Source: Candidatus Neomarinimicrobiota bacterium (lineage in GTDB: Bacteria > Fidelibacterota > Marinisomatia > Marinisomatales > TCS55). Taken from it: DNA of 22,991 nt. The notes below the pieces were generated by a model that saw only the letters and a list, made by a program, of their open reading frames with translations, ran no database searches and was not told where the DNA came from. Below, in pieces: positions 2 to 22,991 of the stretch. A program made the position numbers and the translations under genes. The stretch lies in contig JABIDL010000003.1 in NCBI GenBank assembly GCA_018651745.1, forward strand, positions 1-22,991. Direction: 5' to 3'. How positions within the stretch are numbered: position 1 is the first letter of the stretch; each line of letters starts with the position of its first letter.

Positions 2-352
2 TATTCTATTGATAAAAAATATCCCAATGCCGGTAGAGAATTGGGATGGTACTTTATGTTTCCCGGCAAATCATTAAATAAAGATCCTGTTTCTGGGATT
101 ATTAGGCGACATCATGTTCATGAATCCAATATTCAGCGTGCTGTTAAAAAGGCTGTACGCAATGCAGGGATTCATAAACAGGCAGGATGCCATTCGTTCC
201 GTCATTCTTTCGCCACCCATTTGTTAGAAAATGGTTATGATATTCGTTCTGTGCAAGAATTGCTGGGACATAAAGATGTGCGCACAACCATGATCTATAC
301 TCATGTGATGCAAAAAGGACCTCTGGCTGTAAAAAGCCCATTGGATCATTAA
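2..352 (+). CDS. intI: Integron-type tyrosine recombinase (IntI family), C-terminal part, cut by window edge
   Basis: The open frame enters from the left edge and ends at TAA 350-352, leaving about 116 C-terminal residues; the in-frame TTG at 41 is not a real start. Visible catalytic residues of tyrosine recombinases are the His-x-x-Arg box (His codon 191-193, Arg 200-202, in [14 protein letters not shown]), the later His (269-271, LLGHKDV) and the nucleophile Tyr (296-298, TMIYTHV). Upstream of the HxxR box is a stretch resembling the extra segment peculiar to integron integrases: YPNAGRE, then [15 protein letters not shown] and QRAVKKAV. This is much closer to IntI than to XerC/D or phage integrases. 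IntI normally recombines attC cassette ends with attI, which lies beside the 5' end of intI. Here that side is outside the window. The first catalytic Arg and the Lys are also outside. The reading frame shows no internal lesion. Confidence 0.88.
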
Positions 353-476
353 AGTTGTTCCACGACCATCCTTAGTCATGGATTTGCATGCGCTGGGAAG
401 CTTGTGCCACATTAATGCCTAAAAAATGTTTATTTAAACCAATTTGAAAAAGTCCGTAATAATCTTATTTTAGAAT
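353..476. other. Intergenic gap between intI and the Crp/Fnr gene
   Basis: This 124-nt stretch follows the integrase stop. I see no attC-like site with paired simple-site cores and no GC-rich hairpin with a T-run that would mark a terminator. It holds a 12-bp palindrome, GTTTATTTAAAC (428-439), and a possible promoter close to the next gene (separate entry). The palindrome could be an operator for the following regulator, but nothing else in the sequence supports that. Confidence 0.5.
444..471 (+). promoter_or_regulatory. Candidate sigma70-type promoter for the Crp/Fnr gene
   Basis: TTGAAA (444-449) and TATTTT (466-471) are separated by 16 nt. Transcription would then begin about 6-7 nt after the -10 box, at or within a base or two of the ATG at 477, giving a leaderless or nearly leaderless message. 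No Shine-Dalgarno sequence precedes that ATG, which fits a leaderless start. The match is by eye in AT-rich DNA, so it is weak evidence. Confidence 0.3.
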
Positions 477-1157
477 ATGAGTAAAGTAGAATTTCTTCAA
501 TCGGTCCCCATATTTTCTGATCTCAGTGATGAAACGCTGAAAAAAATATCCGATAAGATGGTAACTCGGTCTTACACCAAAGGACAAATGATTCTTCTAG
601 AAGATGCTGCCGGTGAGACTTTTTTTGTCATGTCATCCGGTAGTGTAAAGGTTACACGTCTCAGCGGTGAAGGTAGGGAAGTTATTTTGGCAATTCTCGG
701 CGAAGGCGATTTTTTCGGCGAAATGTCTCTTTTAGATGGCGAAGGTCGTTCAGCCAATATCGTATCCATTAACGATTCCGAAGTTTTAACACTGACTCGG
801 GGAGATTTCCTAGATATTCTAGAGACATTCCCCAAGATAGCAATTAGCTTTTTAGAAGAACTTGCAAGACGTTTGAGAAAAAGTGATCAGCAAATTGAAA
901 GTTTGTCTCTTGCGGATGCAGACCAACGAATTGGAATGGTTTTGGTAAGGCTCGCAGAAGAACTTGGTACTATTAAACAGGGGAACGTCTCGATTAAAAA
1001 TTTTCCGTTTCAACAAGATATTGCCAACATGGCCGGGACATCTCGAGAAACAGTTTCACGTACTCTAAGAGTTTTGGAAGACAACGGATACATGTCTCGC
1101 AAGGCAAAAACGTTGATTATTTACAATTTTGATTTCTTCCAGAAAAATTTTTCCTAA
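477..1157 (+). CDS. Crp/Fnr-family transcriptional regulator
   Basis: This 226-residue protein has the usual family length and architecture. Residues about 10-125 form a cyclic-nucleotide-binding-type beta-roll, with GEGDFFGEMSLLDGEGRSA at 76-93. That segment resembles the phosphate-binding cassette of CRP, including the Glu and Arg-Ser that contact cyclic nucleotide. A dimerisation helix follows (about 122-145). The C-terminal winged helix-turn-helix includes TSRETVSRTLRVLE at 188-201. The protein has no cysteine at all, so it cannot hold an FNR-type Fe-S cluster; it may bind a nucleotide or another small ligand. The ATG at 477 places the first family residues (VEFLQSVPIFSDLS) in the normal position. 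It heads a run of tightly packed genes 26 nt upstream of meaB. Its regulon cannot be told from the sequence. Confidence 0.9.
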   Translation: MSKVEFLQSVPIFSDLSDETLKKISDKMVTRSYTKGQMILLEDAAGETFFVMSSGSVKVTRLSGEGREVILAILGEGDFFGEMSLLDGEGRSANIVSINDSEVLTLTRGDFLDILETFPKIAISFLEELARRLRKSDQQIESLSLADADQRIGMVLVRLAEELGTIKQGNVSIKNFPFQQDIANMAGTSRETVSRTLRVLEDNGYMSRKAKTLIIYNFDFFQKNFS

Positions 1158-22438: not shown

Positions 22439-22511
22439 GCCGGTGTAGCTCAGTTGGTAGAGCAGCTGATTTGTAATCAGCAGGTCGGGGGTTCGAGTCC
22501 CTTCGCCGGCT
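22439..22511 (+). tRNA. tRNA-Thr (anticodon UGU)
   Basis: The 73-nt cloverleaf has acceptor GCCGGTG pairing with CGCCGGC (one G-U) and anticodon stem GCTGA/TCAGC around loop TTTGTAA, so the anticodon is TGT (22472-22474). The T arm has loop TTCGAGT and two G-U pairs. The discriminator is T. The following bases are CGA, so no 3' CCA is encoded. It is first in the Thr-Tyr-Gly-Thr-tuf cluster. Confidence 0.97.
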
Positions 22512-22582
22512 CGATACGAAAAAACATTGGTAAGAAAAAATTTAGGACATCGATGGAAGAAAAAAAGAAAATTAATATTACC

Positions 22583-22665
22583 GGGGAGATGCCCGAGTGG
22601 TCAAAGGGAGCAGACTGTAAATCTGCCGGCGTACGCCTACGGAGGTTCAAGTCCTCCTCTCCCCA
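22583..22665 (+). tRNA. tRNA-Tyr (anticodon GUA)
   Basis: The 83-nt gene has acceptor GGGGAGA/TCTCCCC and anticodon stem GCAGA/TCTGC around loop CTGTAAA, giving anticodon GTA (22617-22619). A long variable arm is present, as expected for bacterial (type II) tRNA-Tyr. The discriminator is A, and no 3' CCA is encoded. It is separated from the first tRNA by 71 nt of A-rich spacer. Confidence 0.97.
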
Positions 22666-22672
22666 CAACTAC

Positions 22673-22743
22673 GCGAGCGTAGTTCAATGGTAGAACCCCA
22701 GCCTTCCAAGCTGGTGATGTGGGTTCGATCCCCATCGCTCGCT
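22673..22743 (+). tRNA. tRNA-Gly (anticodon UCC)
   Basis: The 71-nt cloverleaf has acceptor GCGAGCG/CGCTCGC and anticodon stem CCAGC/GCTGG around loop CTTCCAA, giving anticodon TCC (22705-22707). The T loop is TTCGATC. The discriminator is T, and no CCA is encoded. It starts only 7 nt after tRNA-Tyr, so the two come from one transcript. Confidence 0.97.
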
Positions 22744-22758
22744 CAAATATCAAGGTGT

Positions 22759-22991
<233 letters not shown>

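Follow-up and report, generated by a model that had tools for sequence, protein, structure and literature searches.

The integrase gene at the left end of the window

The window analysed here is the entire contig C3 (22,991 bp), one of the 43 contigs that make up a 1.86 Mb draft genome. At its left end lies an open reading frame with an open 5' end, which encodes 116 amino acids and contains the string YPNAGRE (Table 1). The gene is truncated by the contig end, and its 5' two thirds, N-terminal residues included, fall beyond it.

Table 1. Genes and features at the left end of the window
Feature	Position	Strand	Remark
intI (type B), 3' end	2..352	+	last 116 codons and stop; IntI-specific segment and C-terminal catalytic residues
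REP-like hairpin region	351..411	+	immediately 3' of the intI stop
crp-type regulator gene	477..1157	+	chromosomal neighbour marking the integron site

The first-pass annotation had read the 116 residues as carrying tyrosine-recombinase catalytic residues together with the extra segment typical of integron integrases (IntI), and all of our comparisons agree with this reading. The NCBIfam integron integrase model TIGR02249 matched the window protein over profile positions 200-313 of 315 (E 2.3e-55) with 188 bits, which is under the model's 265-bit cut-off for whole proteins, as one would expect when a third of the protein is present, and the Xer-type models reached 88-90 bits at best. PF00589, the catalytic domain of tyrosine recombinases, was also matched (E 3.4e-23). 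Among solved structures the top match was IntI4 (2a3v; E 1.3e-38), followed by an XerC-like enzyme (E 2e-14). Alignment with the Xer proteins of the same genome revealed that the window protein and other IntI have extra residues, the IntI-specific segment near patch III, which the Xer proteins do not have, and the HSFRH, LGH and IYTH tyrosine motifs were all found in the window protein. In a tree of 86 proteins, the Xer proteins separated from the IntI group including the window fragment with a support of 99. Within that group the fragment fell in a clade of six close relatives; the tree is a quick build in which the fragment covers just 37% of the columns, but this placement fits the 91% identity that it shares with the protein of genome G038. 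Its nearest IntI come from within the phylum, not from the classic integron hosts.

These results confirm that the reading frame is the C-terminal end of an integron integrase, and its family is thereby observed directly. That a Xer-type recombinase or a phage integrase was mistaken for IntI has virtually no chance of being correct: the Xer models do share the catalytic core with the window protein and hence score on it, but the IntI model reaches 188 bits, the protein has the IntI-only segment, the tree splits it from Xer, and distinct Xer-like genes exist on contigs C2 and C14 of the same genome. On the family scores and the tree, we thus dismissed this identity.

Downstream of the gene, bases 375-410 of the window, 36 in all, are identical to DNA that follows a second intI on contig C32 of the same genome, and the REP-like flanks after the two genes are only about 90% alike; after the second gene, the hairpin region occupies L008 11490-11550. 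IS200-like Y1_Tnp transposase genes come after intI in genomes G130 (L153 1183-1812) and G022 (L034 796-1410). A model of the attC recombination site, which we built on 48 sites from non-relatives, detected no site anywhere in the window, in accord with the annotation's statement that no attC lies on this side of intI. Across 13 integron loci, the majority of them also sources of training sites, the model placed 52 of 52 matches on the array strand. Genome-wide scans with it found none, and are uninformative, since the scan filter also missed the known site of genome G010. Window positions 22439-22832, at the right-hand contig end, hold clustered genes for four tRNAs (Thr, Tyr, Gly, Thr).

The orthologous site and the edges of the arrays

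IntI joins the folded single-strand attC of a cassette to the attI site beside the 5' end of intI, and cassettes thereby accumulate in an array. At the same chromosomal site in the congener G010, a complete intI (317 aa) adjoins the same crp-type regulator gene. Upstream of this intI are, in order, attI-like DNA, an acetyltransferase cassette, an attC (124 nt, 29 bits with the attC model), a HigBA pair (a HigB-like toxin and its helix-turn-helix partner), an ATP-grasp gene and rpsT, the last two of which were assigned from their sequence. In the window genome, the rpsT region sits near the right end of contig C30, and past rpsT this contig carries an attC-like hairpin flanked by two cassette-like ORFs, the one nearer to rpsT membrane-protein-like and the farther one thioredoxin-like, before it terminates in TCCACCGGAC, which resembles the left half of a further attC. 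The sequence GGTGAGTTTATTCGTTA, which forms the right half of the hairpin, also closes attCs of G011, the other congener, and a search with an attC-end pattern gave one exact match at C30. The left R'' box of the hairpin is poor, and the attC model misses the site; its folding is moderately better than that of shuffled sequences (z about -1.5 to -1.8).

The annotation had placed a chromosomal integron just left of the window, and this claim gained indirect support from two sources, namely from the complete intI, attI-like DNA, cassette and attC beside crp in the congener, and from the rpsT side of the window genome itself, the far end of the site in the congener, which ends in cassette-like DNA. 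Neither of the outcomes that the annotation had named as refuting its claim came about. Given the rpsT side, window position 1 and C30 most likely bracket the unassembled array of the window integron. The pairing of C3 with C30 is a probable one drawn from synteny; the comparison of contig ends for shared DNA yielded zero overlaps, and no sequence connects the two.

The genome also holds a second integron. On C32, a methyltransferase gene is adjoined by a complete intI (317 aa) that belongs to a different type, A, and is 64% identical to the type B of the window across the last 114 aa; in G011 the same methyltransferase adjoins mutL. The window genome has mutL close to the right end of C2, and past that gene we found a well-formed attC. 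In this site all 12 pairs of the L box form, on either side of the customary two extra bases, as do 6 of the 7 R-box pairs, and its folding beats that of shuffles (z about -2.3). A further attC-end pattern gave one exact match here, and the last 17 bases of the site recur unchanged in attCs of two other genera, represented by G038 and G012. A strict attC scan of 89.6 kb of other sequence from the window genome returned no match; its rules, by which the G010 and G038 sites were also picked, had been set after the C2 site was seen, which makes the contrast somewhat flattering. The second locus thus comprises a complete intI, a predicted attI and an attC, with C32 and C2 putatively paired on the basis of synteny with G011. 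In G010, the miaA-mutL site is without intI and contains a 147-bp copy, 96.6% identical, of DNA at the far end of the G010 integron array (L189 4227-4372; L028 4749-4895); this copy may be a duplication or a scar left where an integron was lost.

Inexact matches to the attC-end patterns were no commoner than in the reversed-pattern control. One of them, at C28:13-29, led to half of an attC at the contig start. The left end of C28 (L187 1-1000), which borders chromosomal genes, consists of this right half followed by a cassette-like gene that weakly matches a prenyltransferase toroid, and may be a third array edge in the window genome.

The DNA upstream of intI aligns among C32, G010, G038 and G129, and C32 and the G129 contig end at the same column, in GTTA, at the point where the first cassette of G010 starts. 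This suggests that the conserved upstream DNA is a putative attI carrying different cassettes within the population. Repeats could instead have caused these breaks, but it would then be a coincidence that two genomes break at that exact base. Contigs that stop at the predicted crossover base, as these two do, may offer an easy way to read cassette turnover in natural populations.

Interpretation of the crp locus

Taken together, the window very probably starts within the integrase gene of a sedentary chromosomal integron whose cassette array lies to its left. The locus order in the genus would be crp - intI - attI - cassettes - (ATP-grasp) - rpsT, and the two edges of the window locus in the assembly would be window position 1 on C3 and the right end of C30. 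The second integron would run as methyltransferase - intI - attI on C32, with its last attC beside mutL on C2. The orthologous site, the attC-like hairpins and the conserved attI-like DNA are direct observations; the number of cassettes and any recombination activity of the integrase we infer. In their parts and layout, these loci are ordinary machinery of sedentary chromosomal integrons, a known kind.

Since the congener carries type A beside crp and the window type B, the question of a swap or a join arises for the window: its type B gene may have come to lie beside crp by genuine recombination at the repeat, or the two may have been joined falsely during assembly. In the latter case, the crp side of C3 would have been fused through the 36-bp repeat to the type B intI of the other site, and the crp site would really hold type A. 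The 36 identical bases after both intI genes and the type A gene beside crp in G010 speak for such a join, which we nevertheless consider unlikely, as the repeat is short and lies in a flanking repeat region about 90% alike, so that ordinary assembly settings should tell the two copies apart, and a biological exchange at the repeat accounts for the same facts. Under either reading, the genome contains both intI genes, and crp has an integron next to it. It is also quite improbable that the intI of the crp site is a remnant or a cassette-less integrase to which the C30 end is unrelated. The window gene indeed has no assembled array alongside, the C30 hairpin is imperfect, and genome G039 demonstrates that intI decay is possible, but the window fragment is in frame with its catalytic residues conserved, the contig breaks fall at intI, attI and attC-like DNA, as is usual for cassette arrays in draft assemblies, and the congener locus carries a cassette and an attC. 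In G039 (L035 4305-4850), intI has an internal deletion that leaves the N- and C-terminal parts in one frame of about 180 codons, which looks like a decayed gene.

In a broader picture, the integrons of this phylum would have two exchangeable integrase types that swap between chromosomal integron sites and across families, perhaps via recombination at the REP hairpins beside intI, while cassettes circulate between genera. We put this forward tentatively, as an idea that is still rather doubtful.

Distribution and relation to known integrons

The annotation's remark that the lineage is not a classic integron host was addressed through the distribution of IntI in the phylum. IntI was directly observed in 8 of the 40 genomes of the family and in 44 of the 245 genomes of the phylum, about one in five, which represent 25 of its 84 genera. 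The G038 protein, the 91% identical relative of the window fragment, is itself 92% identical to the copies in G022 and G021 and 88% identical to copies in another family. By comparison, the window and its congener G010 share 82% identity in MeaB, and the genes for a kinase and a transporter that adjoin intI in both G038 and G129 are just 50-54% identical. Because these genes diverge more, the similarity of type B intI across genera and families (88–92%) favours its transfer, although strong conservation could also add to the similarity. Furthermore, the end of a GDT1-family cassette together with its attC, 127 bp, is identical in two genera, as found in G011 (L119 1503-1629) and G034 (L171 8117-8243). 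In this phylum, sampled via draft genomes, integron integrases are thus a feature of roughly every fifth genome, and at least one cassette end is common, unchanged, to separate genera.

A review of 2021 counted 14 phyla with integrons (PMC8618304), and drafts are already known to split integrons at contig ends (PMC9024848). The present loci illustrate how draft genomes conceal integrons, with contigs that break inside intI, at attI or in attC.

Compared with known systems, these integrons resemble the sedentary chromosomal integrons of, for example, Vibrio and Xanthomonas in the extra segment of IntI, the attI-like DNA upstream, the attC-ended cassettes and the array strand orientation, as well as in the cassette types, which include toxin-antitoxin and acetyltransferase genes. 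They differ in that the arrays here are unassembled and in that the nearest relatives of the window IntI lie within the phylum rather than in the classic hosts. IntI4 (PDB 2a3v) aligns without gaps over 113 of the 116 window residues, the IntI-specific segment included, whereas its chromosomal neighbours and its host are different. As in the integrons described from metagenome-assembled genomes of archaea and other uncultured groups (PMC9668308), intI and cassette arrays occur here in drafts and are often split by contig ends, but the present integrons are bacterial, with their IntI placed among bacterial IntI.
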